A stretch of DNA of 64,000 nucleotides from contig NZ_AP018694.1 of the NCBI RefSeq assembly GCF_009689585.1, positions 3,115,001 through 3,179,000 of the forward strand, in the 5' to 3' direction. The position numbers were made by a program, and so were the translations under genes. The stretch is from Aquipluma nitroreducens (lineage in GTDB: Bacteria; Bacteroidota; Bacteroidia; Bacteroidales; Prolixibacteraceae). Positions 7,724-60,320 of the stretch are shown in pieces (the first letter of the stretch is position 1; every line of letters starts with the position of its first letter). Under the pieces are notes generated by a model. That model had not been told where the DNA came from. It saw only the letters and a list, made by a program, of their open reading frames with translations, and made no database searches.

Positions 7724-8320
7724 ATGTTGAAGCAAAATTTTAAGAACGATGCGGAGGCCTTGCTGCAAATGTCGGATGGAAACGCCGCGGCTTATCGTTT
7801 TTTGTTCGACCACCACTTCACCGATTTGTGTAATTTCCTCCTGATTTACTTACATTCAAAAGAGCTTTCGGAAGAAATAGCGCTCGAAATTTTCACCTTC
7901 ATTTGGGAAAAAAGACAAACCCTTCAAATCAAAGCGAACTTTAAATCATTTCTTTTTTCTTCGGCTAAAAACCGAGCCATAAGTTTGTACCGGAAAGAAC
8001 AGAAAAAGATGTTTACCTCAATCGATCCCGGACAATCTGTTTTTCTGGACGATTCAAGCTCGCAACAACTGATGGAGAACAACGAGCTACGCGAAATTAT
8101 TAATACTGCAATCAATAAACTTCCGGAAAAAAGTAAGCAGATTTACCAATTGGCATGGGAAGAGAACTTGTCGCACAAAGAGATTGCCGAGCAATTGGGA
8201 ATTACTCCGAAAACAGTTGAGAACCATGTGGGAATTGCTTTGCGCAAACTTCGTGAATCGCTGAATCCTTATTATCAGCAAATTTTTATGCTTTTGCTGG
8301 TTCAGCTTTTTATCGACTGA
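7724..8320 (+). CDS. ECF RNA polymerase sigma factor (Bacteroidota sigma-70 family)
   Basis: A 198-residue extracytoplasmic-function sigma factor. Region 2 is seen at ~20-95 (AYRFLFDHHFTDLCNFLLIYLHSKELSEEIALEIFTFIWEKR..., FKSFLFSSAKNRAISLYRK) and region 4 at ~125-180 (LPEKSKQIYQLAWEENLSHKEIAEQLGITPKTVENHVGIALRKLRESL). There is no region 3. It should be held by the FecR protein encoded at 10691 and released when the STN-bearing SusC binds substrate, then transcribe the sus genes. Unusually a GH3 gene separates sigma and anti-sigma. The promoter is a standard housekeeping one, with no sign of autoregulation. Confidence 0.9.
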   Translation: MLKQNFKNDAEALLQMSDGNAAAYRFLFDHHFTDLCNFLLIYLHSKELSEEIALEIFTFIWEKRQTLQIKANFKSFLFSSAKNRAISLYRKEQKKMFTSIDPGQSVFLDDSSSQQLMENNELREIINTAINKLPEKSKQIYQLAWEENLSHKEIAEQLGITPKTVENHVGIALRKLRESLNPYYQQIFMLLLVQLFID

Positions 8321-8488
8321 CTTCCAAAATCTAAATATTGTACTTATCAACCCATTGCAAAACAATAAGTTCTATGCTTTGGACGGGTTTGCAGACCATT
8401 GAATAAGATGTCAGTTAAATAATTACTTTTAATTTATTAAACACGACTTATTCTCAGAACCATTCAAAACCTAAATTCTGAATCAATC

Positions 8489-10588: not shown

Positions 10589-10628
10589 CTGTATTTGTGT
10601 AATCTACAATAAGGTGTTAAAAAAGTTT

Positions 10629-10667
10629 AAAAATCCTTCAATTTCGATTGAGGGATTTTTTCTTTTT
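10629..10667 (+). terminator. Rho-independent terminator after GH3
   Basis: A 14-bp stem (arms 10629-10642 and 10647-10660, one G-T pair) with a TTCG tetraloop, followed by T-rich sequence. It separates the GH3 gene from the fecR-like gene. Confidence 0.85.
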
Positions 10668-10690
10668 AGGAGACTTATACACGTAAGACT

Positions 10691-11695
10691 ATGACTATGC
10701 AACAAGACCATATACCCTGGGATGCGATCTCCGCTCGTTTGAAAGACGAAGCTGATGAGGATCAAATTCGACAAATTCAAAAGTGGCTGGATTTGTCTCC
10801 AGAGCATCCAGTAATTTTGACTGAAATAATGAATGTTTGGTCGGTTTCGAAAAGCAGTACCGAATTTTATCAGCCCGATTTATCAGTCAATTGGCAGAAA
10901 TTGATGCAGAAGGTTAATTCTCGTCCTAAACAAAGCCTGTTTCGTACCATTTCTTTTCGGATCTCGGCAGCCGCAGCTGTTTTGGCATTGGTTTTTTTGG
11001 CTGGATTAGGTCTTGGTGATGGTTTTTTGAATTCATCTAAAAAAGTATCTTATACCCGCATTATTGCTCCGGAAGGAAATAAAACTCAAATTGTTCTTCC
11101 TGATAGTACACATGTTTGGCTCAATTCGGGCTCTGAATTGCAGTATGCATCTGATTATTCTGCAAGGAACCGCAAAGTCAATATGAAAGGCGAGTGTTTC
11201 TTTGATGTGGTAAAAGATCCGGATCACCCATTTATCGTTCAGGGATCGAAATTTCAGGTGCGCGTTTTTGGAACCCGATTTAATGTGAATGAAGATGCCT
11301 CCCAAAATACTGCGGATATTACATTAGTTTCAGGTAAAGTTCAGGTTTTCAATTTAGACGATAAGCCTGTATCCGAATTGATTCCTGGTCAGCAATTGGT
11401 TTATAATCAAGGAATTTATCACGTGCAGAAGGCCGTTAATATGGAAGCGCTTACCGCATGGCTAAATAACATGCTGATTTTCGATAACCAGCCTTTTGAA
11501 GAAGTAATTCATTATTTGGAGAAATGGTATGGGGTGAAAATACAGTTAGATCATACCCTGTATTACAGTCACAACTATACATTCAAAGTTAAAACCGAAA
11601 GTTTACGCGAAGTTCTTGCCCTTATTTCGGTCATCACACCCATTGAATATCAGATAGAAGGAGAAAAAGTAATGATCAAATATAAAAAGCTATGA
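10691..11695 (+). CDS. FecR-family anti-sigma factor
   Basis: A 334-residue inner-membrane anti-sigma regulator. The cytoplasmic part (~1-90) would bind the sigma factor. One TM helix lies at ~97-115 (AAAAVLALVFLAGLGLGDG). The periplasmic FecR domain starts at ~123 (TRIIAPEGNKTQIVLPDSTHVWLNSGSELQY... GECFFDVVKDPDHPFIVQGSKFQVRVFGTRFNV) and the C-terminal DUF4974 domain covers ~255-330 (FDNQPFEEVIHYLEKWYGVKI... FKVKTESLREVLALI). It would receive the signal from the STN domain of the SusC protein encoded next. A second ATG two codons downstream is equally possible as start. Confidence 0.92.
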   Translation: MTMQQDHIPWDAISARLKDEADEDQIRQIQKWLDLSPEHPVILTEIMNVWSVSKSSTEFYQPDLSVNWQKLMQKVNSRPKQSLFRTISFRISAAAAVLALVFLAGLGLGDGFLNSSKKVSYTRIIAPEGNKTQIVLPDSTHVWLNSGSELQYASDYSARNRKVNMKGECFFDVVKDPDHPFIVQGSKFQVRVFGTRFNVNEDASQNTADITLVSGKVQVFNLDDKPVSELIPGQQLVYNQGIYHVQKAVNMEALTAWLNNMLIFDNQPFEEVIHYLEKWYGVKIQLDHTLYYSHNYTFKVKTESLREVLALISVITPIEYQIEGEKVMIKYKKL

Positions 11696-11838: not shown

Positions 11839-14800
11839 ATGAAAAAAAAATCAATGCACATGTGGCGGGGGAACCCGCTTGCACAAAAAATTCTTTTAAT
11901 TATGCGACTTACGCTATTCTTAATGGTTTTTAGTGTTTTAAGTGCTTTTTCGAGCAGCTACGCACAAAAGACCAAACTTAATCTGAAAGTTCAAAATAGT
12001 CAGGTGAAGGAAGTTTTAAACGAGATCGAAAATCAGAGCGATTTCTTTTTTATGTACGACAATCATCAGGTTGATGTTGAACGGCGTGTAAATCTTGAAA
12101 TTAATTCGCTGAACATTGATCAGGCGCTTCAAAAATTATTCGAGGGCACATCAACAGGTTACAAAGTTGTAAACAGGCAGATTCTCCTTTTCACAGAAAA
12201 TGAAAGCAGTGCTTATTCTCAGCAAACCACTAAGGTTACTGGTAAAGTAACTGATGGGTCGGGTGGTACATTACCTGGCGTTTCTGTCGTAGTAAAAGGA
12301 ACTACAAATGGAACTATCACCGACATCGACGGTGCATATAACATTGGTAATGTGCCTGTAAACGCAACATTGCAGTTCTCTTTTGTTGGTATGAAGTCTC
12401 AGGATATAGCAGTGGCTGGTAAAACCACCATTAATGTAGTTCTTGAAGAAGAAACAGTTGGTATTGAAGAGGTTATTGCTATTGGTTATGGCGTTCAGAA
12501 AAAGAAATTAAATACCGGATCAACGATTCAGGTAACCGGCGAAAATCTGCAAAAGATGAGTACTGTGAGCGCTTTGGGCGCTTTGCAGAGTCAAACTCCT
12601 GGGGTTAGTATTACTCAATCATCAGGTATGCCTGGCGAAGGTTATAAAGTTACTGTTCGTGGTTTGGGTACTATTGGTAATTCCAATCCATTGTATGTTA
12701 TCGACGGGATTGCTGGAGGCGATATTAACTCGTTAAACCCTGCAGATATTGAGTCGGTTGACGTACTGAAAGATGCTGCTTCGGCTGCAATTTATGGTGC
12801 ACGCGCCGCTAACGGTGTTATTTTGGTTACTACCAAACAAGGTAAGTCAGGAAAAATGCAGGTTACCTACGACGGGTATTACGGCGTACAGAATCCATAC
12901 AAGGAAGCGCCGCTTTTGAATGCAAAAGAATACATGACTATTTTGGATGAAATCAATTTTAACGAAGGTTTGGCTTCTTTCGATTGGCAAGGCGTGCTTC
13001 CTTCTTTATATTCAAAAATTCAGAGTGGTGAGTGGAACGGAACAAATTGGCTAAAAGAAATCCGTAATAAAAATGCAGCAACACAGAACCACGCCATCAA
13101 CATGTTGGGTGGTAGTGAAACCTCGAAATTCTCATTGGGTTTTTCTTACAGCGATCAACAAGGTATTTATGGTAGTCCGGTTGAGCCAGACAATAAACGT
13201 TATACGGCTCGATTGAATTCGGAACATGTTATTTTGAAAGGCAGTTCAGGCCGTGATGTAGTAAAATTTTCTGAAAACCTGAATTTTGGCTACGGCGAAA
13301 AACAAGGTATTGGTATTGGCAATATCTATTGGAACGACATTCACAATATGATGGTTGGTAGTCCTTTGATGCCAGTTTACGGTACCGATGGAACTTATTT
13401 CGATAAAAAAGACAAGGCTTTAACGGGGCTTGATCTTTTTAATCCAGACATTGCAAACCCTATTGCAAACATGGTCTATAATCGGGGTCAGAATTTGTCG
13501 AAAAACTACAATTTAAACGCAAATGCTTCTCTTGAAATTCAGCCCATTAAAGATTTAACATTGAAAAGTACATTTGGGTATAAGAACAGCGCAAGTAGCT
13601 ATCGTCAATATACTCCAATGTACGAACTTTCAACTTCAAGCATGAATACCATCGATAAGGTTAACCAGTCAATGGGTTCAGGCTATAGCTGGACATTTGA
13701 GAACACAATTTCCTATTCAAAAATGTTTAACGAGCATTCGTTTAATGCCATTATTGGTCAGTCTCTCGAAAAATGGGGAATGGGTGAAGATATGAATGTT
13801 ACCAATGGCTACTCACTTTTTACTGATTTTGAACATGCATGGCTCGATAATACCAAAGGCTTGACTGCCGGAACAACAACAATCAGCGGTAAACCTTGGG
13901 GATCAGGAGGCGTTGAGTCGTTCTTTGGTCGTTTAAGCTACAACTACAAAGAAACCTATATGGCTACCGTTGTGATGCGTGCCGATGGTTCTTCAAACTT
14001 CGCCCGTGGAAATCGTTGGGGTTATTTCCCATCAGTTTCGGCAGGTTGGGTTATGACAAATGAGTCGTTTATGCAAAACACCAAGAGCTGGTTAGATTTC
14101 TTCAAACTACGTGGTAGCTGGGGTCAAAACGGTAACGCCGCGATTGATAATTTCCAATACCTTGCAACAGTGGCTTTCGATTTAACAGGAGCCTATTCAT
14201 TTGGTAATACCAAAACTACTCAGTCAACAGGTGGTTATGCCGAAATTCTCCCAAACAAAGACATTAAATGGGAGACTTCTGAAACAGTTGATTTAGGGTT
14301 TGATGCCCGTTTCATACAGTCGCGTTTGGGTTTGGCTTTCGACTGGTATAACAAAAAAACCATCGACTGGCTTGTTGACGCACCAATATTGGGATCGTAT
14401 GGAACAAAAGCTCCATACATTAATGGTGGTGATGTTGTGAATAAGGGTTTTGAACTTGGCGCTAACTGGAAAGATCATGTTGGTAAAGTAAACTATGGAG
14501 TAAACTTCAACATTGCCCATAATAAGAACGAAGTTACCCGTATTGCGAATAGTGAAGGGATTATCCATGGTGATGCAAATGTTTTGAGCCAGGGTACTTC
14601 TGAAATGTATCGTGCACAGGTAGGATTTCCTATTGGTTATTTCTGGGGATACAAAACTGCCGGAGTATTCCAGAATCTGGAAGAAATTGCTGCTACAAAA
14701 ACATTTTTGCAATCAAAACCTCAGCCCGGAGATTTAATCTTTGTTGATACCAACAGTGATGGAAAAATTGATAACAAAGATAAAGTTGAAATTGGTGATC

Positions 14801-15297
14801 CTCATCCCGACTTTACTATCGGTTTCGGTTTTAATGTTGATTATAAAGGGTTCGATTTGAATGTGGCTGCTTCAGGAGCCTTTGGACAACAAATTGCAAA
14901 ATCGTACCGTTCGTTTGCCGACTCATATGTTCAAAATTATACAACCGATATATTTGCCCGCTGGCATGGAGAAGGAACTTCCAATAAATTGCCTCGTTTG
15001 ACAAGCGGAAGCAATACAAACTGGCAGGAAATTTCTGATATCTATATTGAAAATGGCGACTATGTAAAAATTCAAAATGTAAGTGTTGGCTACGATTTCA
15101 AAAAATTGTTCACCAAATTACCATTTTCACAGGCTCGTTTATATGTAACAGCGCAGAATGTTTACACATTCACCAATTATTCTGGTCAGGATCCTGAAAT
15201 TGGATATGGCGGCGGTCAAAGCTGGGTATCTGGAGTTGATTTAGGATTCTATCCAAGTCCACGGACATTTTTGATGGGTGTTAATCTCAAATTTTAA
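11839..15297 (+). CDS. SusC/RagA-type TonB-dependent transporter with STN signalling domain
   Basis: A 1152-residue outer-membrane TonB-dependent transporter for oligosaccharides. Signal peptide to ~42 (SSYAQ). STN domain ~45-120 (KLNLKVQNSQVKEVLNEIENQ... GYKVVNRQILLF) for contact with the FecR anti-sigma. CarboxypepD-regulatory-like domain ~132-213 (VTGKVTDGSGGTLPGVSVVVKG). The RagA signature and plug follow (~220-345: PLYVIDGIAGGDINSLNPADIESVDVLKDAASAAIYGARAANGVILVTTK cut across), then a 22-strand-type barrel. It pairs with the SusD gene 12 bp downstream. The STN domain explains the sigma/FecR pair upstream. The substrate is not readable; neighbouring GH3/GH2 enzymes suggest a beta-linked glycan. 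Confidence 0.95.
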   Translation: MKKKSMHMWRGNPLAQKILLIMRLTLFLMVFSVLSAFSSSYAQKTKLNLKVQNSQVKEVLNEIENQSDFFFMYDNHQVDVERRVNLEINSLNIDQALQKLFEGTSTGYKVVNRQILLFTENESSAYSQQTTKVTGKVTDGSGGTLPGVSVVVKGTTNGTITDIDGAYNIGNVPVNATLQFSFVGMKSQDIAVAGKTTINVVLEEETVGIEEVIAIGYGVQKKKLNTGSTIQVTGENLQKMSTVSALGALQSQTPGVSITQSSGMPGEGYKVTVRGLGTIGNSNPLYVIDGIAGGDINSLNPADIESVDVLKDAASAAIYGARAANGVILVTTKQGKSGKMQVTYDGYYGVQNPYKEAPLLNAKEYMTILDEINFNEGLASFDWQGVLPSLYSKIQSGEWNGTNWLKEIRNKNAATQNHAINMLGGSETSKFSLGFSYSDQQGIYGSPVEPDNKRYTARLNSEHVILKGSSGRDVVKFSENLNFGYGEKQGIGIGNIYWNDIHNMMVGSPLMPVYGTDGTYFDKKDKALTGLDLFNPDIANPIANMVYNRGQNLSKNYNLNANASLEIQPIKDLTLKSTFGYKNSASSYRQYTPMYELSTSSMNTIDKVNQSMGSGYSWTFENTISYSKMFNEHSFNAIIGQSLEKWGMGEDMNVTNGYSLFTDFEHAWLDNTKGLTAGTTTISGKPWGSGGVESFFGRLSYNYKETYMATVVMRADGSSNFARGNRWGYFPSVSAGWVMTNESFMQNTKSWLDFFKLRGSWGQNGNAAIDNFQYLATVAFDLTGAYSFGNTKTTQSTGGYAEILPNKDIKWETSETVDLGFDARFIQSRLGLAFDWYNKKTIDWLVDAPILGSYGTKAPYINGGDVVNKGFELGANWKDHVGKVNYGVNFNIAHNKNEVTRIANSEGIIHGDANVLSQGTSEMYRAQVGFPIGYFWGYKTAGVFQNLEEIAATKTFLQSKPQPGDLIFVDTNSDGKIDNKDKVEIGDPHPDFTIGFGFNVDYKGFDLNVAASGAFGQQIAKSYRSFADSYVQNYTTDIFARWHGEGTSNKLPRLTSGSNTNWQEISDIYIENGDYVKIQNVSVGYDFKKLFTKLPFSQARLYVTAQNVYTFTNYSGQDPEIGYGGGQSWVSGVDLGFYPSPRTFLMGVNLKF

Positions 15298-15309
15298 TTT
15301 TTTTCCGCT

Positions 15310-17019
15310 ATGAAGAATTTAATATATATATGTATAGCCGCAACTTCGCTGCTATTTATGAGTTGTGAAGATTTTTTGGATACAAGTAATCTCACAAAAA
15401 AGGATACTTCAAATTATCCTCAGACTTTAACCGATGCACAGCAAATGATTACTGGAATTTACTCCAATCTTAACTATGCTGTTGCAAGTCCTGCGAGTTC
15501 ATCTTATTTCGTGTCAGAGCTTGTTTCCGACGACCGTTTTGGTGGAGGTGGAGAAAATGATAAAATGGTGCAGGCCTTAGATCTTATGCTCAATTATGGG
15601 TCAAGCATGCTTCAGGATTTCTGGAACACCCGCTATAAAGGCATTTTCCGTGCGAACATGGCTATTGAAACTCTTGACAATTGTTCTGGTTTCGAAAGCG
15701 ATGATCAAAAAAATCAGATAAAAGGCGAAGCTTATTTCATGCGTGCCTTTTTCTACTCCGAAATGGCAACTCTTTTTGGTCAGGTGCCTTTGGTGGTTGC
15801 TACTGATCCGGTAAACTTGCCTAAAGCTACTCCCGAAGAGCTTTATGCCCAGATTGCTACCGACCTGAAAACAGCTATTGAGATGATGCCATCGAAACCT
15901 TATACTTCGGTTGAAGCCGGACACGCAACCAAATGGGCTGCAGAGGCGCTTATGGCTCGCGTATATTTATTCTATACCGGATTTTATACAAAAGATGCAC
16001 TTCCTCTTGTTGGTGGTGGATCTGTATCTAAAGATCAGGTAGTTGCATGGCTTGAAGATTGTATTGAGAATAGTGGCCACACTCTCGTGGGCGATTATCG
16101 CAATCTTTGGTCGTATACCAATAAATATACTGTTGAAGATTATGACTATACAAAAGGTAAAGGGTTGAAATGGGTTGAAGACGATGGCGCGGTAAATCCT
16201 GAAACCATGTTCTCGGTTAAATTCTCAAACTTTCCAAGCTGGAGCACAACTATTGGTTATGCTAATCAGAATGCTCTTTACTTCGGAATCCGTGGTGGTC
16301 AGGATTTAGCTAAAACATTCCCATTTGGTCAAGGCTGGGGAATGGGTCCGGTGAATCCAACACTTTGGAATGACTGGAAAGCTGCAGAACCAACAGATAT
16401 TCGCCGTTCAGCTTCAATTATTGATATTCCTCAGGAACTACCAAATTATACCAAGGGTGGATGGGCTGACTTTGTTCAGGAAACTGATTACTGGCAAAAG
16501 AAATTTAGTCCGGTATCTGCAAAAAATACTGAAGGCGGTTATGCATCTTCATACAGTGTATTGATGTATAATACTCCTGAAAACTTCCAGCTCGACAATA
16601 CAATGGATCAGGTTATTATTCGTTTGGCCGATGTTTACCTGATGCACTCTGAATTAACACAAACCAATACCTATATGAATAAGGTTCGTGAACGTGCTGG
16701 CTTGACAGATAAGCCTTACTCATTGGCAAACATTCAGAATGAACGTCGTTGGGAGCTTGCTTTTGAAGGTACTCGATGGAATGATATTCGCCGTTGGGGT
16801 CTTGCTGCCGATTTACTCGATAAACAAATTGGGGTTGCCTGCTACTACAAGGCCACTGCCGATGTGACCAAATCGTTTGGTGGAGGTTACAAGGCTCGCT
16901 ACAATGCGACGAAAGGATTTTTTCCGATTCCTGAAGCTCAAATTGCTCTTTCGCAGGGTGTCTTGGTTCAGAACGATGGCTGGGGAACTACTGGTGCGGA
17001 GTATACCGGTTGGAAATAA
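15310..17019 (+). CDS. SusD/RagB-type surface glycan-binding lipoprotein
   Basis: A 569-residue lipoprotein with lipobox LLFMSC (lipidated C19), anchored at the cell surface as the lid of the SusC barrel. SusD-typical pieces: early TLTDAQQMITGIYSNL, the TPR-rich centre (GEAYFMRAFFYSEMATLFGQVPLV, ATKWAAEALMARVYLFYTGFYT), and the C-terminal RLADVYLMHSEL ... NKVRERAGL and NERRWELAFEGTRWNDIRRWG segments. It binds glycan and passes it to the transporter. Expressed with susC (12-bp gap) and with the lipoprotein gene 33 bp downstream. Confidence 0.95.
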   Translation: MKNLIYICIAATSLLFMSCEDFLDTSNLTKKDTSNYPQTLTDAQQMITGIYSNLNYAVASPASSSYFVSELVSDDRFGGGGENDKMVQALDLMLNYGSSMLQDFWNTRYKGIFRANMAIETLDNCSGFESDDQKNQIKGEAYFMRAFFYSEMATLFGQVPLVVATDPVNLPKATPEELYAQIATDLKTAIEMMPSKPYTSVEAGHATKWAAEALMARVYLFYTGFYTKDALPLVGGGSVSKDQVVAWLEDCIENSGHTLVGDYRNLWSYTNKYTVEDYDYTKGKGLKWVEDDGAVNPETMFSVKFSNFPSWSTTIGYANQNALYFGIRGGQDLAKTFPFGQGWGMGPVNPTLWNDWKAAEPTDIRRSASIIDIPQELPNYTKGGWADFVQETDYWQKKFSPVSAKNTEGGYASSYSVLMYNTPENFQLDNTMDQVIIRLADVYLMHSELTQTNTYMNKVRERAGLTDKPYSLANIQNERRWELAFEGTRWNDIRRWGLAADLLDKQIGVACYYKATADVTKSFGGGYKARYNATKGFFPIPEAQIALSQGVLVQNDGWGTTGAEYTGWK

Positions 17020-17052
17020 TATAATTGATTAAAGACTTTTAACTAAGCGAAT

Positions 17053-17886
17053 ATGAAAAATATAATATATGCTTTGTACATGTTGGTCATTGTTTTGGTA
17101 GCATGTGACCCTATTGAAAATCGTGATTCAATTGGAGGCGCAATTAGCGCCGATCAATTGGATGTAACAGCCACACCGATTGTTGTTAATGGCAAGAAAT
17201 CGAACAAAATCGTGCTAACCAATAATAGCCCTGTATTGTCATCATGGGATTATGGTTTAAAAATTTCTCAGAAGCAATGTGACACGATACTGATGGTTGT
17301 TCCTGGAAATGCTACAATTGCATTTACGGGATTAAATCCTGACGGAAGTAAAATAACCAAAGATCTTCAGGTAACTGTTGACGAACTTACTTATCCTGTT
17401 GCGCCGCAATGGGGATACCTTTGCGGATCGGGTCAGAAGACATGGGTTTGGGACGAAACTGCCAGTTCCTGTTTTGGTAACGGAGGATATTTGGGCAATA
17501 ATTCACCAGGTTGGTGGGCGCTTAAAATCGGTGAGCTCGATGGCCAGGCTGCTGGCGAAGGCGAAGGCGCTTCAATGGTTTTTTCTACCACTGGTGCTTC
17601 TTTAACCAAAAACTACACCAATGGCACTGCCGCCAGTAAAGGTAAGTTTGATTTTGATATGTCGAAAACAACAGCCGATGGAAATGGAGCAACCTGGGCA
17701 CAAGGTGTGTTAACTACATCAAACGTTACAGTGCTTTGTGGTATCTCAATCAATGAAGGGAAAAAGAATGTGAATTCATACGACATTCTCTCGTTGGATA
17801 ATGATAAAATGACACTTTCTTATCATGCACCAGGAACTGGTGGTTGGGGAGAGGCTTGGTTTTGGCTGTTTAGAAAAGCTGATTAA
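17053..17886 (+). CDS. SusE/F-position surface lipoprotein, family not recognised
   Basis: A 277-residue lipoprotein with lipobox VLVAC (C18). It occupies the slot of SusE/SusF-type glycan-binding lipoproteins at the end of a susCD operon. The first ~110 residues look like an Ig/PKD-like beta-sandwich (VVNGKKSNKIVLTNNSPVLSSWDYG, TIAFTGLNPDGSKITKDLQVTVDELT). The remainder is rich in Gly, Trp and aromatic residues (QKTWVWDETA, NNSPGWWALKIG, GTGGWGEAWFWLFRK), consistent with a second carbohydrate-binding sandwich. Glycan binding is inferred from position and composition. A strong terminator follows. Confidence 0.7.
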   Translation: MKNIIYALYMLVIVLVACDPIENRDSIGGAISADQLDVTATPIVVNGKKSNKIVLTNNSPVLSSWDYGLKISQKQCDTILMVVPGNATIAFTGLNPDGSKITKDLQVTVDELTYPVAPQWGYLCGSGQKTWVWDETASSCFGNGGYLGNNSPGWWALKIGELDGQAAGEGEGASMVFSTTGASLTKNYTNGTAASKGKFDFDMSKTTADGNGATWAQGVLTTSNVTVLCGISINEGKKNVNSYDILSLDNDKMTLSYHAPGTGGWGEAWFWLFRKAD

Positions 17887-17992: not shown

Positions 17993-18586
17993 ATGAAAAA
18001 TTCTGTTTTTGTTTTGTTCTTGTTTCTTATTTCCTGCCAATCCCGAAATAATTATACCATTGTTGGTCAACTGCCCGGCAAAACCTACGATGGTGAACTC
18101 ATTTATCTGGTACCGATGGAGAATGCTTCAAAGGAAAGAGTAGATTCAACATTCATAAAGGACGGATCTTTTCAATTTGAGGGATTTGCAAAAATTCCGG
18201 AGATGTATGTTATTCGGGCGAAGCCGGTATTGAGATATAACCTTGAAGAGCTTTTAGTGGTTCGCGAGGCTGGCAAAATGAACGTGAAATTGGATAAAAG
18301 CAGCTCTGTTCAAGGCACAGCACTCAACGACTCTCTTCAGTATTGGAAGGAACAAAAAATGAAGTTCGATCTTGTCGACGCTGACTTGATAAAACAGTAT
18401 CGGAATGCCAGCGATAGTGTGAAACAAGATTTAAAACAGCGGGCAGATTTGCTAAAGATTAATGCTACAAACTTTCACTTCAATTTTGTATTGAATAACA
18501 AAGAAAATGCTGTTGGTCAGTTTGTTCAAAAAATGATGGGTAGCTCTTTCTCCGAAGAGCAAAAGCAGAAACTGAATGTAAAATGA
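17993..18586 (+). CDS. DUF4369-domain lipoprotein
   Basis: A 197-residue lipoprotein (FLFLISC, C15) with the DUF4369 fold that often precedes a thioredoxin domain in TlpA/ResA-like proteins: YTIVGQLPGKTYDGELIYLVPM ... VDSTFIKDGSFQFEGFAK. The thioredoxin part is missing; instead there is a helical tail (~110-197). It is the first gene after the sus terminator, 9 bp before the DUF6057 gene, so it probably heads that operon. Function unknown; a periplasmic partner of the DUF6057/CxxCH proteins is possible. Confidence 0.7.
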   Translation: MKNSVFVLFLFLISCQSRNNYTIVGQLPGKTYDGELIYLVPMENASKERVDSTFIKDGSFQFEGFAKIPEMYVIRAKPVLRYNLEELLVVREAGKMNVKLDKSSSVQGTALNDSLQYWKEQKMKFDLVDADLIKQYRNASDSVKQDLKQRADLLKINATNFHFNFVLNNKENAVGQFVQKMMGSSFSEEQKQKLNVK

Positions 18587-18595
18587 CCTGATTGA

Positions 18596-20332
18596 ATGAA
18601 GGGGTATTTCGAAAAATATGATTGGATTTTGCCGGTTGGGCTTGTGGGGCTGAGTTTTGTGTTTTTTCAATTCTTTTACCCTTATCATTTGTTCTTCAAA
18701 GAGCAGATCCAATTGTTTTTGTACACTCCCAATTATTTTCTATCCTACTTTAAAAAGCCGGCCTGGCTGGCCGCATATTTTGGCGATTTCCTAACTCAGT
18801 TTTTTTATCTGCGTGGCGGTGGTGCTGCAATATTGGCTTCCCTTTTTTGCTTCGAATGGGTGCTTACTGCGGCAGTCCTTAAACGCATTACTTCAAGCAC
18901 AAAAGCGGGGTTGTGGTCTTTGCTCCCGCCTTCGGCCGACTGGGTTCTCCATTGCAACACGTTACACGGCGTGTCGGTTTCCGTCGGTTTTATCCTTGTT
19001 TTGTGTATGTTTTTAATCTATGCTGCTCTTTCCGAAGTGTGGATTTCATATGCAATTCTGACAATATTTTCCTTGACTGGTTATTGGCTTTTGGGCAGTT
19101 CATTTCTCATTTTCCCATTTTTGATTTTGGCTTACGATATTAACAATCATCGGGTTCACTGGATGAAATGGATATTTGTCCTGTCCGTAGCATTCGCTAT
19201 CCCGCTAATTTTGAGGCAACATTATTTGCTTACTCCAGTTCAGGCAGTTATTTTTCCTGCCTTCAGTAAGCAAAGTCTACTTTTACAAGTAGCACTCTTG
19301 TTTTCGGTTATAAGCTCCTTTTTCCTGAAAAAAATTGAAGCGGCTCACTCCCAATTAATTAGTTTTGGAATCGTTACCGTTTTGGCATTTGTGCTTTCTG
19401 TTGGAATATTAAACAAAGCCGATTTTAATCTCGAAAAGATACTTTCGCTCGATGGCGAAACCTATTTTGGAAACCCTGATCGGGTCATCGAACTCTCAAA
19501 AAAATTCGATTTAAAAAATAAGCAGGCGACTTATTTTACAAATATAGCTTTGGCCGAAAAAGGAGTTTTACCCGAATATCTGCTCGATTTCTACCAGCCA
19601 TTTTCGCCGGGACTTATTCCTCAGGTGACACCTGAAGAAAACTGGCAATCGATATTTGTCAGTAACGAAGTTTTTTTCCTGATTGGCGATATGAATATGG
19701 CTCAGCATTCGGCCATGCTTGGAAATACTTTCTCGCCATATCAGCGGAGTTCGCGAATGATGCGGCGTTTGGCCGAAATTAATCTGGTGACAGGTGATTC
19801 GGCGGCGGCTATCAAATACCTGCGGATTCTTTCTAAAACTCTTTTTCACCGGAAATGGGCTGAAAGCCAGGTGAGGACGATTCAATCTGCTGAAACAAAT
19901 AAATGGCTTGCCGGCAAACGAAGTCAGGTTTCTGATGCTGATCTGTTGCGAAAATCGAACGATTATCTGTCATCGCTTCAATTCCTTGTTGAGCAGCATC
20001 CCGACAATCTTGTAGCTGTTGATTACCTGCTTTGTTACCTGTTGCTCAATAAAGAGGTTAAGTTGTTTCGCGAAAACTACGAACGATATTACCTGAAATT
20101 GAAACGTCAGGTTTCAAAAGTTTATGCCGAAGCTTTGCTTGTGCAGTTGGTTGCCGACAAAGCCTCGCAGCAAGAGGCACAATCGTATTTAATCAATCCT
20201 GAAATTGTTACGAGGTTTACCGAATACACCCGTATTTTCGAGAAGACTTCAGGAGATATGAATGCATTGAATAAGCAATTCTCGAAATCGTATTGGTTTT
20301 ATTATCACTTTGCCACAATTCAGAAGAAATGA
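18596..20332 (+). CDS. DUF6057-family polytopic membrane protein, copy 1
   Basis: A 578-residue inner-membrane protein. About nine hydrophobic segments fill residues ~10-285; the C-terminal half is soluble and helical with TPR-like repeats (MMRRLAEINLVTGDSAAAIKYLRILSKTLFHRKWAE). The N-terminal signature is FFYPYHLFFKEQIQLF, then YFLSYFKKPAWLAAYFGDFLTQF. It is a clear paralogue of the protein at 21936, sharing YPhH..EQ.Q.FL, KP.....Y.G.F.TQF, YQ.SSR...RLAE and KYLR.L.KT. The stop codon overlaps the start of the CxxCH lipoprotein gene (ATGA), so both are likely made together. Biochemical role not known to me; nothing in it proves an enzyme. Confidence 0.75.
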   Translation: MKGYFEKYDWILPVGLVGLSFVFFQFFYPYHLFFKEQIQLFLYTPNYFLSYFKKPAWLAAYFGDFLTQFFYLRGGGAAILASLFCFEWVLTAAVLKRITSSTKAGLWSLLPPSADWVLHCNTLHGVSVSVGFILVLCMFLIYAALSEVWISYAILTIFSLTGYWLLGSSFLIFPFLILAYDINNHRVHWMKWIFVLSVAFAIPLILRQHYLLTPVQAVIFPAFSKQSLLLQVALLFSVISSFFLKKIEAAHSQLISFGIVTVLAFVLSVGILNKADFNLEKILSLDGETYFGNPDRVIELSKKFDLKNKQATYFTNIALAEKGVLPEYLLDFYQPFSPGLIPQVTPEENWQSIFVSNEVFFLIGDMNMAQHSAMLGNTFSPYQRSSRMMRRLAEINLVTGDSAAAIKYLRILSKTLFHRKWAESQVRTIQSAETNKWLAGKRSQVSDADLLRKSNDYLSSLQFLVEQHPDNLVAVDYLLCYLLLNKEVKLFRENYERYYLKLKRQVSKVYAEALLVQLVADKASQQEAQSYLINPEIVTRFTEYTRIFEKTSGDMNALNKQFSKSYWFYYHFATIQKK

Positions 20333-21774
20333 GAGCATATTTGATTGTGTACTTTGTAGCAATGGTAATTTTTTCGTGCAGGGGTCCCGAAAATGTAAAG
20401 ATTAGCAAGGATTTTCCACCGGTTTATCCTGATTATATTGATGTTATCATTCCTCAAAACATAGCTCCTCTCAATTTTCTGTTACGGAATAAACCTGAAA
20501 AACTAATCGTAACGATCAAAGGAAAATCAGATTCAATAACAGTAAAGGGAGAACAAAAAATTGAAATCCCCGGCGCTCATTGGAAGAATTTACTGGCATC
20601 CAGCCTGAATGACAGCTTGCTTGTAAGCGTTTTGGCTCGTTCGAATGGTGAATGGATTCGATATAAGTCGTTTAAGTGGTACGTGAAAAGCGATGAGGTT
20701 GATTCGTACCTGAGCTACCGTCTGATTGAACCCGGTTACGAAGTCTGGAACAAACTGCAAATTGTGGAGCGCAATGTCGAATCCTTTGATGAGCGTGTGT
20801 TGGCCGACAATAACCTAACGCAAGGCAATTGTATGAATTGCCACATCCACGGCAATCAGAGTGGAAAGCTTTCGATGTTTCACCTTCGGGGCGAAAAGGG
20901 AGGAACGATCCTGAATAAAGATGGCAAGCTGCGAAAATTAAATACCCGTGCCAATGGCATGATTTCGAATGCTGTTTATGGCGATTTTCATCCGAACGGA
21001 AGATATGCTGTTTTCTCGACAAACATCATTATTCCTGAATTGCATGCCAACCGGACCGATCGGCTTGAAGTGTACGATACGGCTTCCGATTTGGTGGTGA
21101 TTGATTTGGATTCGGATAAGGCATTCACTAAACCTTTCCTGTCAGACACCACTAATTTCGAGACGTTTCCGGTATTTTCTGCCGATGGAAAATGGATCTA
21201 CTTCTGCTCTGCGCCCAAAGTGACGTTGCCCGATAGCATCAAATCGTTGAAATACAACATTTACCGGGTTGGGTTCGACGCTGCAAAAGGCGAAATTGGA
21301 ACGAAAATAGACACCTTATGGAATGCAAAGAAAATGGGTGGTTCTGTTTGTCATTTGAAAGCTTCTCCCGACGGTAAGTTCCTGCTTTATACTGTTGCCG
21401 ATTACGGAACATTTCCGATTTGGCACCGCGAGGCCGATTTGCAGATGATGAACCTCCAAACCGGTGAAATCGATAAGCTGAGAGGCGTAAATGGCCCGAA
21501 TTCCGATTCATACCACAGTTGGTCATCGAATAGTCGTTGGTTTGTTTTTGCCAGCAAACGCGATGACGGTATTTACGGTAAACCTTATTTTTGCTATATT
21601 GATGCTTCAGGAAAAGCTTATAAACCGTTTGTTTTGCCGCAACGCGATCCTGAAATTTATGATTACATGTTGAAATCGTTTAATATTCCTGATTTGTCTG
21701 ATTCTCCGGTACCTTTTGATGCGGCTGATGTCGAAAAGGTTTACATGGAGCAGGAGGCTGAACAGGTAAAGTAA
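20329..21774 (+). CDS. beta-propeller lipoprotein with one CxxCH haem motif, copy 1
   Basis: A 481-residue lipoprotein. I chose the ATG that overlaps the previous stop because it gives a compact signal with lipobox VIFSC; an upstream in-frame start would not. A beta-sandwich-like N-domain is followed by a single c-type haem site NCMNCH (C168, C171, H172) with a conserved HLRG 14 residues on. Then come TolB/PD40-like propeller blades (SNAVYGDFHPNGRYAVFS, FPVFSADGKWIYFCS, LKASPDGKFLLYTVADYGTFPIWHREADLQMMNLQTGE, SYHSWSSNSRWFVFASKRDDG cut here). A periplasmic or surface cytochrome-like protein is suggested; the second axial ligand is not certain. It pairs with the DUF6057 protein by gene overlap. 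Confidence 0.75.
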   Translation: MRAYLIVYFVAMVIFSCRGPENVKISKDFPPVYPDYIDVIIPQNIAPLNFLLRNKPEKLIVTIKGKSDSITVKGEQKIEIPGAHWKNLLASSLNDSLLVSVLARSNGEWIRYKSFKWYVKSDEVDSYLSYRLIEPGYEVWNKLQIVERNVESFDERVLADNNLTQGNCMNCHIHGNQSGKLSMFHLRGEKGGTILNKDGKLRKLNTRANGMISNAVYGDFHPNGRYAVFSTNIIIPELHANRTDRLEVYDTASDLVVIDLDSDKAFTKPFLSDTTNFETFPVFSADGKWIYFCSAPKVTLPDSIKSLKYNIYRVGFDAAKGEIGTKIDTLWNAKKMGGSVCHLKASPDGKFLLYTVADYGTFPIWHREADLQMMNLQTGEIDKLRGVNGPNSDSYHSWSSNSRWFVFASKRDDGIYGKPYFCYIDASGKAYKPFVLPQRDPEIYDYMLKSFNIPDLSDSPVPFDAADVEKVYMEQEAEQVK

Positions 21775-21776
21775 AA

Positions 21777-21908
21777 GCCTCCCCCAAACCCCCTCCAAAA
21801 GAGGGGGCTTAAAGAGGTGGGATTGTTAAGTCATCTGCTTTGAAAAGAACACGTTGTGAATATACTCTGCCCAAAGTCTCCCCTTTCGGGGGAGATTTAG
21901 AGGGGGCT
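21777..21908. repeat. GC-rich inverted-repeat element R1
   Basis: About 132 bp beginning AGCCTCCCCCAAACCCCC and ending GAGATTTAGAGGGGGCT, each end forming its own hairpin around a 45-bp unique middle. The ends are imperfect inverted repeats, like a small MITE or REP-type element. R3 (60197-60320) has nearly the same ends. It lies between module copies 1 and 2, 3 bp after a stop codon. Confidence 0.75.
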
Positions 21909-21935
21909 GATATTTTAAATAATTAATTTTTGAAG

Positions 21936-23693
21936 ATGAAATACTTTTCTCTTGATAAACTGCTTTCGCTAATTTTTGGACTTGTTGTCTTTTGGTTTTT
22001 TGCCTTTTTGTACCCGTTCCATCTGAATTATCAGGAACAATACCAAATGTTTTTGTTTTCATCCGATTACTTCCTGAATTTCTTTGCCAAACCCGGTGGA
22101 ATCAGCGATTACATTGGTAATTTCTTTACCCAGTTCTATTTTTATTCGTGGGTTGGAGCTTTGACTATTGCAGTTTTGTTAGTTGTTCTTCAGCGTGCCG
22201 TTTGGTTTATTTCAAAGCAATTTGGTGCAAAGCCGGTTTTCGTTCCGATTACTTTTATCCCTTCATTGCTTTATTGGAGCTTGTTTTGCGACGAAAACTA
22301 CCTGTTGGGTGGTTTAATCGTTATGTTGATTGTGTCGGGATTTGTTTCGGCTTTTCTATTGATAAAGCCTGTAAATATTCGGATGGGCTTTGTGTTGGTT
22401 TCGATTCCGGTTTTATTCTGGATGGCCGGCGGTGCTTTTGTTTTACTCCCGTTATTTGCAGTAGTTTTTGAAGCAGTGAACCGGAATCTGAAAGTGACTT
22501 ACTTGTCAATTTTTGGATTGGTATCAACTTTGATTTCATATGCAATTCCAACACTTTGCAAGTCATTTTTTCTGCAATATCCGCTTCGGCAGGTATGGAT
22601 TGGCGCCAATTATTTCCGATTTCCGGTTAATGTTCCGGTTTCGGTTGGTATTGTTGCCCTTTTACTGGTCGTTATTCCATATGCACTTTATTACTTTTCA
22701 AGAATTATAAAACGAGATCATTCGAAGATATTCATTGCCGGTCAGTTGATTGTGCTGGTTTTTGGAGCTTCTTTTTTGATCACTCATTCAGTTGATATGG
22801 GAAAGGAAGAAGTTATGGCCTACGATTTCAACTGCCGGATGCGCAAATGGAATCGGGTAATTGCTATGGCCGAGAAAAAGACACCGACTACACCGCTATC
22901 GGTAACCTGCCTGAATCTGGCTTTGGCCAAGGAAGATATGCTTGGCGAACGCATGTTCAACTATTTTCAGAATGGTATTGGCGGACTGATGCCCGATTTC
23001 GTTCGCGACTATACCATTCCGTTGATTGCCGGTGAAGTGTATTATCATCTGGGGTTTGTAAATACAGCTCAGCGTTTTGCTTTCGAGGCCATGGAGGCTT
23101 TGCCCGATTACCAAAAAAGTTCGCGTGCCGTTATGCGTCTGGCCGAAACCAACATTATAAACGGCAATTATGAGGTTGCCGGAAAGTATTTGCGTTTGTT
23201 GCAGAAAACTTTTTATTACAAGGGCTGGGCGACAAAGGCAATGGCAACGATGAAAGATGAAAAACTGATTGCACAGCATCCGGAATGGGGCTGGTTGCGC
23301 AAATGCCGGACACAGGAAGACTTCCTTTTCAGCGAGGGTGAAAAAGACATGATGTTAGGAGTTCTTTTCAGGCAAAATCCTGAAAACCGCATGGCTTTCG
23401 AGTATTTAATGGCTTACACGTTATTAAACAAGGATCTGAAACATTTTCTTCAATATTTCCCGTTGAGCGAATCGCTGAAGTATCGAGCCATCCCTAAAAG
23501 TTATCAGGAGGCGCTGTATTATGCCTGGACCCAAACGAATAATGATCCAACTAAAGATATTCCCTACCCGATAAGTAATTTGATCAAGCAACGGTTTCAG
23601 GCATTTCAGAAAATGCCGGGACAACCGAATTCAGGTTCTGGCAAAAACGAGTTTTCAGATACGTACTGGTATTATCTTTATTTCGTAAAATAA
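21936..23693 (+). CDS. DUF6057-family polytopic membrane protein, copy 2
   Basis: A 585-residue paralogue of the protein at 18596. Start set at the ATG giving MKYFSLDKLLSL; a TTG two codons upstream is possible. Residues ~10-285 contain about nine hydrophobic segments (LIFGLVVFWFFAFLYPFHL, GALTIAVLLVVLQRAVWFI, LIVMLIVSGFVSAFLLI and others). The soluble half has TPR-like helices (AVMRLAETNIINGNYEVAGKYLRLLQKTFYYKGWA). The shared N-terminal YPFHL..QEQYQMFL and C-terminal half show that the whole gene was duplicated, but the sequences have diverged widely. The CxxCH lipoprotein gene follows after 6 bp. No function is established. Confidence 0.75.
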   Translation: MKYFSLDKLLSLIFGLVVFWFFAFLYPFHLNYQEQYQMFLFSSDYFLNFFAKPGGISDYIGNFFTQFYFYSWVGALTIAVLLVVLQRAVWFISKQFGAKPVFVPITFIPSLLYWSLFCDENYLLGGLIVMLIVSGFVSAFLLIKPVNIRMGFVLVSIPVLFWMAGGAFVLLPLFAVVFEAVNRNLKVTYLSIFGLVSTLISYAIPTLCKSFFLQYPLRQVWIGANYFRFPVNVPVSVGIVALLLVVIPYALYYFSRIIKRDHSKIFIAGQLIVLVFGASFLITHSVDMGKEEVMAYDFNCRMRKWNRVIAMAEKKTPTTPLSVTCLNLALAKEDMLGERMFNYFQNGIGGLMPDFVRDYTIPLIAGEVYYHLGFVNTAQRFAFEAMEALPDYQKSSRAVMRLAETNIINGNYEVAGKYLRLLQKTFYYKGWATKAMATMKDEKLIAQHPEWGWLRKCRTQEDFLFSEGEKDMMLGVLFRQNPENRMAFEYLMAYTLLNKDLKHFLQYFPLSESLKYRAIPKSYQEALYYAWTQTNNDPTKDIPYPISNLIKQRFQAFQKMPGQPNSGSGKNEFSDTYWYYLYFVK

Positions 23694-23699
23694 TCGGCT

Positions 23700-25286
23700 A
23701 TGAGTGAAATACAATTCAAAAAATATCTGTTGGTATCTCTTACCCCCAACTCCCTAAAGGGGGCTAAATCATTTGCAGTATGGCAAGTCCCCTTTAGTGG
23801 ATTTAGGGGTAATTTATACGAGATTTTGGCCTTTCTTCTTTTGTCGCTTACCCTTGTTTTATCAGGATGCGGAGGGAAAGTAAATCCAGAAGCGGTTCTC
23901 AAAGAAAAACCAAAACTTTTTCCCGACTATGTGGATGTTACAATTCCTGCCTCGATTGCCCCTTTAAATTTTAAACTTCAGGAGGAGTATTCGGCTATGG
24001 ATGCAGTTTTCGAGGGGAAGAATAACCAGGTTATTCATGTTCAGGATAGCAAGGAAATCTGTATTCCGGCTGGTGATTGGAGTAAAATGTTGGAAGCCAG
24101 CAAAGGCGACAGCCTGAAAGTAACTGTTTCGGTAAAGCAACACGACCGCTGGAAGCAGTTTGCTCCTTTTCGTTTGTACGTGAGCGAAACGCCTATTGAT
24201 TATGGTTTGGTGTATCGCCTGATTGCTCCCGGATACGAAGTTTACAGCAAAATGGGCATTTATCAACGCAATCTTTCGAATTTCGACCAAAGTCCGATTG
24301 TCGAAAATACGCTGGTTCCCGGAAGTTGTGTGAATTGCCATTCGTTTCGCCAGTCTGATCCAAAAAACATGAGTTTGCATATCAGAGGCCCCAAAGGGGG
24401 TACGGTTTTGCTTGCCGATGGAAAAATGAATGTTTTGAACACGAAGACCGACAAAACCATTTCGAATTTCGTTTATCCGTTCTGGCATCCATCGGGTAAT
24501 TATATCGCCTATTCGGTTAACAACACCCATCAGGTTTTTCACGAAGAAAAAGACTCCCGGGTTGAAGTTGGCGATGCTGCTTCGGATGTTGTTGTTTACG
24601 ACATCAAAAACAATCAGGCCATAAGTTGTAACCTGCTGATGCAGGACAGTATTTTTGAGACATTTCCGTCGTTTTCTGCTGATGGCCGTACGCTTTATTT
24701 TTGCCGGGCAGCTCATAAAAAAATGCCCGAGCAGTATAAAGAAGTCAGGTATAACCTTTGCAGTATTGCTTTTAATCCTGAAAATGGCACGTTTGGCGAC
24801 CGGATTGATACTTTATTCAATGCAACGGCACAGAATAAAAGCGTTACTTTTCCGCGTCCTTCGCCCGATGGAAAATACATCATGTTTACCTTGGTTGATT
24901 ACGGAAATTTTTCGATCTGGCACAAGGAAGCCGATTTGTATTTGCTTGACCTGAAAACCGGACAGACCCATCGCCTCGACGAAGTGAACAGCGACAATAC
25001 CGAGAGTTACCATTCGTGGTCGTCGAATTCGCGCTGGTTTGTGTTCAGTAGCCGTCGGATGGATGGATTATACACGCGTCCTTTTATCGCTTACCTCGAT
25101 GAAAATGGTAAGGCCGGGAAACCATTCCTGTTGCCGCAATCGGATACTGAATTTTACGACCGGCTGCTTTATTCATTCAATATTCCTGAATTTGTCAGCG
25201 GGAAAGTGGATGTTGATCCGAACATCATTGAAAAGTTGGTTTCAGGTGAAAAGCGGGTTCAGGTAGAATCGCTAAAATTGCAATAA
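23700..25286 (+). CDS. beta-propeller lipoprotein with one CxxCH haem motif, copy 2
   Basis: A 528-residue paralogue of the protein at 20329. Haem site SCVNCH (C210, C213, H214) with HIRG following; propeller blades include FVYPFWHPSGNYIAYSV, FPSFSADGRTLYFCRA, PSPDGKYIMFTLVDYGNFSIWHK and SNSRWFVFSSRRMDG. The ATG 6 bp after the previous stop is probably the ancestral start, but repeat R2 (23740-23812) has been inserted in frame, adding ~25 residues ahead of the hydrophobic stretch and lipobox (LAFLLLSLTLVLSGC). A TTG at 23826 would restore a normal short signal peptide and may be the working start. Both copies share PDYhDVhIP..IAPLNF and YRLI.PGYEV. Confidence 0.75.
   Translation: MSEIQFKKYLLVSLTPNSLKGAKSFAVWQVPFSGFRGNLYEILAFLLLSLTLVLSGCGGKVNPEAVLKEKPKLFPDYVDVTIPASIAPLNFKLQEEYSAMDAVFEGKNNQVIHVQDSKEICIPAGDWSKMLEASKGDSLKVTVSVKQHDRWKQFAPFRLYVSETPIDYGLVYRLIAPGYEVYSKMGIYQRNLSNFDQSPIVENTLVPGSCVNCHSFRQSDPKNMSLHIRGPKGGTVLLADGKMNVLNTKTDKTISNFVYPFWHPSGNYIAYSVNNTHQVFHEEKDSRVEVGDAASDVVVYDIKNNQAISCNLLMQDSIFETFPSFSADGRTLYFCRAAHKKMPEQYKEVRYNLCSIAFNPENGTFGDRIDTLFNATAQNKSVTFPRPSPDGKYIMFTLVDYGNFSIWHKEADLYLLDLKTGQTHRLDEVNSDNTESYHSWSSNSRWFVFSSRRMDGLYTRPFIAYLDENGKAGKPFLLPQSDTEFYDRLLYSFNIPEFVSGKVDVDPNIIEKLVSGEKRVQVESLKLQ
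23740..23812. repeat. inverted-repeat element R2 inside a coding sequence
   Basis: A 73-bp element with ends TTACCCCCAACTCCCTAAAG and its imperfect inverted complement CTTTAGTGGATTTAGGGGTAA. It is similar in style to R1 and R3 but shorter. It lies inside the signal-peptide region of the CxxCH lipoprotein gene and keeps the frame open. Confidence 0.75.
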
Positions 25287-25335
25287 AATCATTTGCAGAA
25301 ATTAAAAATACAAGTAGGTTTAAATCAATTTTGTG

Positions 25336-26529
25336 ATGAGAGAAGGAAAAATAAAAGTTACACAGGGAATAATGATAAAGCCTAAATATCAGATTTTTAT
25401 ACCCGGATGCATCGGGTCTTTCGAAGAACAGTGGTCCGATTGTTTCAACGAGTTTCAGCTTTTCCTGAATACGTATCCTAATCAAAAAGCGTTTATTGCC
25501 CGGGTTTTTGTTGGAGCCAATAATCCGGATGAGTATTTCAGTTATTCAAAACAGATCGAAAGTCGTTTAAATGCGACTGGTATTCCTTTCAGCGTGGTGG
25601 CCGAATCGCCTGAATCTCCCGTGTTGGTGATGATTGAAGCCGGATTTGTAAATTCCGCCGATATTCAGATTGAGTATGGCATGGCCGGAACAGTCAGATA
25701 CAGTAAGATCAATTCTTCGGGATACAATGAATATTGGTTTGCCGGTGTTGGTAGTGGAATAGAAGGCGAATCAACCAGAGAAAAATCGGCCAATGCTTTT
25801 GCCTCTCTTCTGGAAGCCTTTCTAAAATTGGGAATCGGGTTCAATTCGGTTTTCAGACAGTGGAATTACGTTGAGCAAATTTTTGATTTTGATCAGACTG
25901 AGAATCGGCAAAGGCAGAATTACCAGCTTTTTAATGAAATTCGCAATGAGTATTATTCGAAATACCTCACTGGTCAAGGGTTTCCGGCTGCAACTGGCAT
26001 TGGTACCAACCTCAATGGAGTAACTATTGAGTGTATGGCGGTAACCAGCGATAGTGAAGTTACTACAGTTGCAATCAGTAATCCGAAACAGCTTAATTCG
26101 TACAAATATGGTCAGGATGTGCTGAAAGGCGATCCACAATTCAGCTGCAAGCAAAATCAACCACCACAGTTCGAACGGGCCCGCCTGATGACAAACGGGA
26201 ACGGTTCCAGATTATTTATTTCCGGAACTGCATCCATTGTTGGACAAGAGACCATTGGATTGAATGATGTAGAAAAGCAAGCCTATGTAACTATTGAAAA
26301 TATTGGACAGTTGGTAAGCGAAAAAAATCTGAGAGCGCATTATCCTGAACTCACTGTTTTTCCTGATAAGTACGCCTATGTGCGTGTATATGTGAAGAAC
26401 GAGGAAGATATTCCAACGGTCAAAGTCATTTGCGAGAACCATTTTGGAGCCGTGCCTATGACTTTTGTAAAAGCTGATATTTGTCGCGCCGATTTGCTGG
26501 TTGAAATAGAAGCCGAGATGATTAGCTAA
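25336..26529 (+). CDS. chorismatase-like protein (FkbO/Hyg5/XanB2 family)
   Basis: About 397 residues resembling the chorismatases that hydrolyse chorismate to dihydroxycyclohexadiene carboxylate (FkbO) or to 3-hydroxybenzoate plus pyruvate (Hyg5, XanB2). Family-like segments: FPAATGIGTNLNGVTIECMAV (~218-238), QFSCKQNQPPQFERARLM and, most typical, RLFISGTASIVGQETIG followed by a Q-rich helix (QAYVTIENIGQLVS). The N-terminal ~150 residues fit the RidA-like first half of these trimer-like proteins. The GTG one codon upstream and an ATG 12 codons downstream are alternative starts. It lies 49 bp after the second CxxCH gene and before the GH2 gene, an unexpected place for a secondary-metabolism enzyme. 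The product type cannot be decided by eye. Confidence 0.7.
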   Translation: MREGKIKVTQGIMIKPKYQIFIPGCIGSFEEQWSDCFNEFQLFLNTYPNQKAFIARVFVGANNPDEYFSYSKQIESRLNATGIPFSVVAESPESPVLVMIEAGFVNSADIQIEYGMAGTVRYSKINSSGYNEYWFAGVGSGIEGESTREKSANAFASLLEAFLKLGIGFNSVFRQWNYVEQIFDFDQTENRQRQNYQLFNEIRNEYYSKYLTGQGFPAATGIGTNLNGVTIECMAVTSDSEVTTVAISNPKQLNSYKYGQDVLKGDPQFSCKQNQPPQFERARLMTNGNGSRLFISGTASIVGQETIGLNDVEKQAYVTIENIGQLVSEKNLRAHYPELTVFPDKYAYVRVYVKNEEDIPTVKVICENHFGAVPMTFVKADICRADLLVEIEAEMIS

Positions 26530-60196: not shown

Positions 60197-60320
60197 AGCC
60201 TCCCCCAACCCCCTCCAAAGGAGGGGACCTAAAAAGGCAAAAGTTCTTAGAGAACGTGAAATTAATAAATAACAGGCTTTTTCTGAAGCCTCACCCTTAG
60301 GGGGAGGTTTGGAGGGGGCT
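60197..60320. repeat. GC-rich inverted-repeat element R3
   Basis: About 124 bp starting AGCCTCCCCCAACCCCCTCC and ending GGAGGTTTGGAGGGGGCT, near-complementary ends, hairpin-forming at each side. The ends are almost those of R1. It sits 5 bp after a stop codon and 16 bp before the next start. Confidence 0.78.

Follow-up and report, generated by a model that had tools for sequence, protein, structure and literature searches.

A DUF6057 membrane protein and a CxxCH lipoprotein form a recurring gene pair in Bacteroidales

A DUF6057 membrane protein and a TolB-like lipoprotein with a single CxxCH motif are encoded together as a conserved unit, often with a chorismatase-like gene that in the window lies at 25333-26529. 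The recurring pair looks like a new envelope system; its individual parts are known folds, and the combination could not be matched to any described system. Our best explanation, held at a probability of roughly 0.42, is a transferase-like envelope module built on DUF6057, with a haem c lipoprotein as its partner and a tie to chorismate-derived phenol chemistry. The original prediction had also regarded the arrangement as lying outside any described pathway known to it, and the literature searches agree: no paper on DUF6057 was found, no published c-type cytochrome or propeller with PUL, TolB, SusD or Prevotella, and nothing on an HzsA-related protein or hydrazine synthase in Bacteroidetes. 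Further searches, judged by title and the start of the abstract and covering chorismatase weakly, found no such system.

Gene order at the locus

The window, the whole stretch of 64,000 nucleotides that was analysed, covers positions 3115001-3179000 of a source genome that is a single contig of 5.7 Mb. Two consecutive DUF6057/CxxCH lipoprotein pairs had been predicted to follow a DUF4369 lipoprotein, and all five open reading frames were found in that arrangement, within the following gene row.

7724 (start): ECF sigma gene, in the gene row of the locus
8489 (start): GH3 gene, in the same row
10691 (start): FecR gene, in the same row
11839 (start), + strand: SusC
15310 (start), + strand: SusD
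17053 (start), + strand: lectin-like lipoprotein
11839..17886, + strand: SusC, SusD and lectin-like lipoprotein taken together, same locus, a recurrent but non-constant association
17993..18586, + strand: DUF4369 lipoprotein, accessory (Pfam PF14289, E 3e-15)
18596..20332, + strand: DUF6057a, predicted GT-C-fold membrane protein with periplasmic TPR tail (PF19529, 486 bits)
20329..21774, + strand: CxxCHa lipoprotein, with N-terminal beta domain, TolB-like propeller and one CxxCH (residues 168-172)
21936..23693, + strand: DUF6057b, predicted GT-C-fold membrane protein with periplasmic TPR tail (PF19529, 605 bits)
23700..25286, + strand: CxxCHb, second TolB-like lipoprotein, one CxxCH (CVNCH)
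25333..26529, + strand: relative of Hyg5-type (CH-II) chorismatases, third component (PDB 5ag3, E 1e-30)
26579 (start): GH2 gene, in the gene row, 3' of the chorismatase-like gene
29032 (start): second GH3 gene, in the gene row

CxxCHa and CxxCHb are each PD40/TolB-like, with a lipobox Cys and a single CxxCH. The DUF6057a and CxxCHa genes overlap by ATGA, with the ATG at 20329 and the TGA at 20330-20332, in keeping with the translational coupling proposed earlier for the first pair. The same genome has a third pair (2549567-2552784) in the vicinity of SusC/D genes and a gene for an ECF-type sigma factor, and the closest relative of the window among the pattern-scan loci is a Prolixibacteraceae MAG (L008) with 88-98% protein identity.

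Several smaller features of the locus were also observed. The chorismatase-like gene adjoins the end of the span first described (25286) and was missed there; alternative starts for it are possible at the ATG at 25336 or 25372. The ECF sigma and FecR genes are separated by a GH3 gene (window 7724-11695). Short palindromes with G/C runs (CCCCCT...AGGGGG type) recur at 21789-21900, 23743-23810 and 60209-60226; one falls between the two pairs and another (about 23743-23810) inside the N-terminal coding part of CxxCHb.

Conservation of the pair and its neighbourhood

In profile searches covering 295 genomes from the order, 38 genomes match the lipoprotein, 36 match DUF6057 and 34 match both, so that the genomic survey proposed earlier found the pairs co-occurring (naive Fisher 1e-37; the counts run across related rows with kinship uncorrected, and as the genomes are related such Fisher values are not independent tests). 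The lipoprotein alone, as a weak or partial match, is seen in four genomes and DUF6057 alone in two. A DUF6057 gene lies at most 600 bp from 61 of the 66 full-length lipoproteins, which are placed immediately 3' of it in the same orientation (52), upstream (8) or on the other strand (1); a lipoprotein partner is likewise present for 60 of 65 DUF6057 matches of at least 1 kb. These counts cover lipoproteins of at least 420 residues and chorismatases of at least 280, and the best five lipoprotein and best four DUF6057 candidates were scored per genome, so some partners were missed; for example, G318:C2 seemed unpaired, with a DUF6057 gene beside it. In the class as a whole, DUF6057 exceeds its cut-off in 9 of 395 genomes, all nine from the same order and including the genome of the window.

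The partners also diverge together. Their distances correlate with r 0.74 (54 pairs from 32 genomes, 12 of which have more than one pair), and reshuffling partners within genomes gave a maximum r of 0.67, with none of 5000 trials reaching the observed value. Adjacency in 61 of 66 cases and this co-divergence bear out the idea of a dedicated membrane partner. Mean identity is higher for the lipoprotein (39%) than for DUF6057 (21%). Joint duplication of both members followed by divergence is supported as well: CxxCHa and CxxCHb are only 42% identical and DUF6057a and DUF6057b only 26%, indicating that the duplication is old, and in other genera each copy, a or b, has closest relatives of its own. 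Records of Prevotella and of Xylanibacter ruminicola contain pairs too; arginine-biosynthesis genes neighbouring the Prevotella-type loci were taken, by eye, as housekeeping. In three genomes (L078, L079, L080) a short DUF6057 of about 390 residues ends a similar gene row, with neither a CxxCH partner nor the first periplasmic loop; the neighbour survey excluded these loci and L073, whose DUF6057 is likewise short or partial and has no CxxCH partner.

The surroundings of the pair are less constant than the pair. SusC, SusD and glycosidase genes adjoin it in the window and several relatives, and the earlier placement of the pairs inside a glycan locus is accurate for the window; as a general context it was rejected, since in the neighbour survey only 21 of 61 lipoproteins have a SusC or SusD gene no more than four genes away and the neighbours are diverse. 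DUF4369 is found near pairs in L068, L070, L074 and many further loci, with only some relatives keeping it, and across relatives it is inconstant beside the pair, as are SusC/D and glycosidases. It could be argued that the genes are ordinary glycan-utilisation parts, namely a binding lipoprotein of the TolB-like kind and a membrane protein, duplicated along with SusC/D genes, as the adjacency in the window and several relatives would suggest; however, the 21 of 61 lipoproteins, the diversity of the other neighbours and the fact that the constant element is the pair itself make this very improbable.

The CxxCH lipoprotein

The CxxCH motif singled out by the original prediction is conserved, being kept in 117 of 118 aligned relatives, with the His as conserved as both Cys (117/118 each), and in 60 of the 61 lipoproteins found independently of the peptide-pattern scan; 57 of the 118 come from that scan and the window, the scan patterns themselves containing the CxxCH peptide, while the other 61 come from outside the scan but were found with a search profile (A1) that contains the CxxCH columns. 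The 118 and the 61 exclude L033-L036, a set of three distant TolB-like proteins without CxxCH and a fourth locus with none labelled. R187, N388 and W404 are kept in 118/118 lipoproteins and H396 in 112.

The sole lipoprotein relative without CxxCH (L168:6062-7459) has also lost H396, and there is no DUF6057 match in its locus. The idea of H396 as a strict distal haem ligand arose from this joint loss and was rejected, four CxxCH copies having Pro and one Leu at that position. A rule that CxxCH is lost only where the partner is absent was likewise dropped, because L140, L167 and L170, also without a DUF6057 match, keep the motif.

The lipoprotein is a probable carrier of covalent haem c, for which the genomes give indirect support. 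A CcsA-type gene (PF01578) is present in all 34 genomes with both genes versus 204 of 261 others (the 34/34 was read from the survey listing, and 20 listed negatives were checked separately), and ResB in 15 of 16 of a smaller genome set. The contrary reading does without haem: CxxCH would be a metal or thiol site, and the lipoprotein would serve the GT-C-like protein as acceptor or accessory subunit, with a parallel in oligosaccharyltransferase, which has thiol subunits. It is consistent with the position of CxxCH in a propeller strand of the lipoprotein model and with the lack of any cytochrome c Pfam domain in the two window lipoproteins at E 0.1; among 47 relatives, Paired_CXXCH_1 matches two (best E 0.077, among 25 of 28 families listed). 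The equal conservation of the His and the CcsA-type gene in all 34 genomes speak against it, and we consider it improbable.

A haem lipoprotein could also serve a purely redox module, as an electron carrier or an oxidase (with a propeller like that of hydrazine synthase alpha) for an extracytoplasmic enzyme, in line with the electron delivery suggested earlier. DUF6057 would then have a GT-C-like fold but no transferase activity, and would only anchor the lipoprotein in the membrane, act as a sensor or assist assembly. This is the strongest of the alternatives, though still unlikely. Among the 89 unlabelled nearest neighbours of the pairs, no Pfam family has more than 4 matches, and there is therefore no constant oxidase or reductase; nor is there a strictly conserved sixth haem ligand across the 118 aligned lipoproteins. 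In comparison with the hydrazine synthase alpha subunit (5c2v), the window proteins have no match to the HZS_alpha middle domain at E 0.1, and the single CxxCH of the window lipoprotein presumably lies at a different place.

Other propeller proteins differ in further ways. TolB of the Tol-Pal system has a TIGR02800 cut-off of 343, where the window lipoproteins score 22.9 and 35.3, and unlike it they have CxxCH and a lipid anchor. XusB (DUF4374) of Bacteroides is likewise a propeller lipoprotein with envelope partners, and is described in PMC13142918, whose text does not contain 'CXXCH', as seven-bladed and siderophore-binding.

DUF6057, the chorismatase-like gene and a possible mechanism

DUF6057 is predicted to be a GT-C-fold protein with a periplasmic TPR tail, a layout like that of TMTC and TMEM260. 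The predicted structure of DUF6057b matches the GT-C fold (Pmt/Stt3-like) over the N-terminal 290 or so residues and TPR folds over about residues 290-450, and the fold of DUF6057a is transferred from this paralogue; the tail is placed on the active-site side, in the periplasm, with topology predicted from loop charge. At the sequence level, TPR_12 is matched by 3 of 46 DUF6057 members, and no GT-C family, TMTC or DUF2723 is matched in Pfam by any of the 46 (GT-C at E 0.1), so that the likeness to the GT-C proteins Pmt and oligosaccharyltransferase falls below Pfam detection. Reverse-direction matches between DUF6057 and GT-C reach E 1.6e-6 and 2.5e-4, hhalign is weak, and sequence searches of solved structures with the lipoprotein and DUF6057 alignments also gave weak matches. 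The suggestion of glycan or polymer export would fit a polytopic protein with a TPR-like tail, which DUF6057 is; it was dropped in favour of the predicted GT-C and TPR fold, and the nine Pfam families matched at E 0.1 among the 46 members include no transporter family (weak single matches are Wzy_C_2, E 0.016, and a NiFe-hydrogenase membrane subunit), leaving an exporter the most remote of the readings.

PMC7801869 and PMC11292533 describe TMTC and TMEM260 as GT-C proteins with luminal TPRs and an acidic motif in the first non-cytoplasmic loop. DUF6057 is predicted to resemble the O-mannosyltransferases TMTC1-4 and TMEM260 in a cytoplasmic N terminus, an odd number of membrane helices and a TPR tail on the active-site side, whereas TMTC has 11 helices against about nine in DUF6057 (counted by eye, one long helix taken as two) and a DD motif against a non-universal Glu-Gln-x-Gln. 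Pfam gives no sequence link between them, and DUF6057 differs in being paired with a CxxCH lipoprotein.

The first periplasmic loop of DUF6057b contains E34, Q37, F39, Y45 and Q66. An invariant catalytic Glu was considered and rejected: E34 is present in 46/46 of alignment A2, both window copies included, but in only 46 of 67 of a wider set of relatives, where 55 of the 63 covering the loop have an acid no more than six residues ahead of F39 and eight lack one. Based on aligned start positions, the loop acid may be equivalent to that of Pmt and Stt3. This check lowered our probability for the transferase-like module from 0.50 to 0.42 and slightly raised that of the redox module. F39 (62/67) and Q66 (57/67) are conserved as expected of an active or binding site, which counts against the redox module.

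The third gene is predicted from its sequence to encode a 3-hydroxybenzoate synthase. All 29 aligned relatives, window copy included, have the active-site Glu together with the CH-II residues Gly, Gly and Cys (positions mapped through the 5ag3 alignment onto residues named in PMC7170507), and according to that paper Gly, Gly and Cys mark 3-hydroxybenzoate synthases among chorismatases. The window protein thus shares these four residues with Hyg5-type enzymes; it differs in having no polyketide genes among its annotated neighbours and in its link to CxxCH propeller genes, and it misses the TIGR04444 cut-off (163 versus 325 bits), which no genome of the 295 in the order passes.

The chorismatase family is found in 26 of the 34 genomes with both pair genes versus 11 of 261 others. 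Within the 14 families in which some genomes have the pair and others lack it, the figures are 14/17 versus 2/24, a value reached in 0 of 20000 permutations (families were assembled by hand from listings, with 37 genomes outside them). The gene lies within 10 kb of the pair in 9 of the 26 genomes, and no other non-PUL neighbour of interest recurs; apart from the window, it is a neighbour in 5 of 64 loci. In a phylum sample of 345 genomes, a full-length lipoprotein occurs in only two others, both from another class, and in both loci (L222, L223) lipoprotein, DUF6057 and chorismatase are contiguous. In one such triad the DUF6057 (L222:8908-10770) has no acid where one is expected in the loop, and this residue may therefore be dispensable for the triad.

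In the transferase-like module that we favour, two genes would form the core and the chorismatase would accompany them in many genomes. DUF6057 would be an inner-membrane GT-C-type protein with its active-site loop in the periplasm, its TPR tail perhaps holding an acceptor or a partner in the way suggested for TMTC and TMEM260. That partner would be its own lipoprotein, a periplasm-facing TolB-like propeller with haem c at CxxCH. With 3-hydroxybenzoate formed by the chorismatase in the cytoplasm, DUF6057 might transfer a group linked to polyprenyl phosphate, either onto the lipoprotein or onto a substrate that the lipoprotein holds, and the haem lipoprotein might perform or gate a redox step on a phenolic product. 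The haem attachment, transferase activity, substrate, TPR docking and role of 3-hydroxybenzoate are all conjectural here, and the complete three-part scheme, in which chorismate is converted to 3-hydroxybenzoate, a group is attached by the GT-C/TPR protein to the haem c lipoprotein or together with it, and the haem carries out redox chemistry on a phenolic product, is itself rather unlikely, its probability having been lowered somewhat by the loop-Glu check. If the scheme is true, it would contain, as far as we know, the first haem c protein to serve a GT-C transferase, and it might involve a new phenol-derived cofactor, or a new modification of the envelope, in Bacteroidales. DUF6057 gains a testable identity through the predicted GT-C fold and TPR tail, as well as a dedicated partner in the CxxCH lipoprotein, both proteins being tied to a predicted 3-hydroxybenzoate synthase.

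Elsewhere, the chorismatase adjoins other CxxCH propeller proteins. In L204:2167-3915 and L205:1315-3042 a membrane-anchored lipoprotein relative with CxxCH adjoins the chorismatase gene; the L204 protein aligns with the lipoprotein at E 1.6e-25 (hhalign), and both have a tail of about 90 residues that by eye is helical and TPR-like, possibly a propeller and TPR fusion. In L196, L198, L200 and L209 (one member of each cluster scanned) the chorismatase lies near a two-CxxCH propeller protein that gives a MauG-like match (scanned in L209), along with Dak1/Dak2 kinase and DeoC-type aldolase genes and, in three of the four, an IclR regulator; three of these loci, L196, L198 and L200, also have nearby a CcsA-type gene and an HZS_alpha/FGE-sulfatase-type protein with two CxxCH (scanned in L198).
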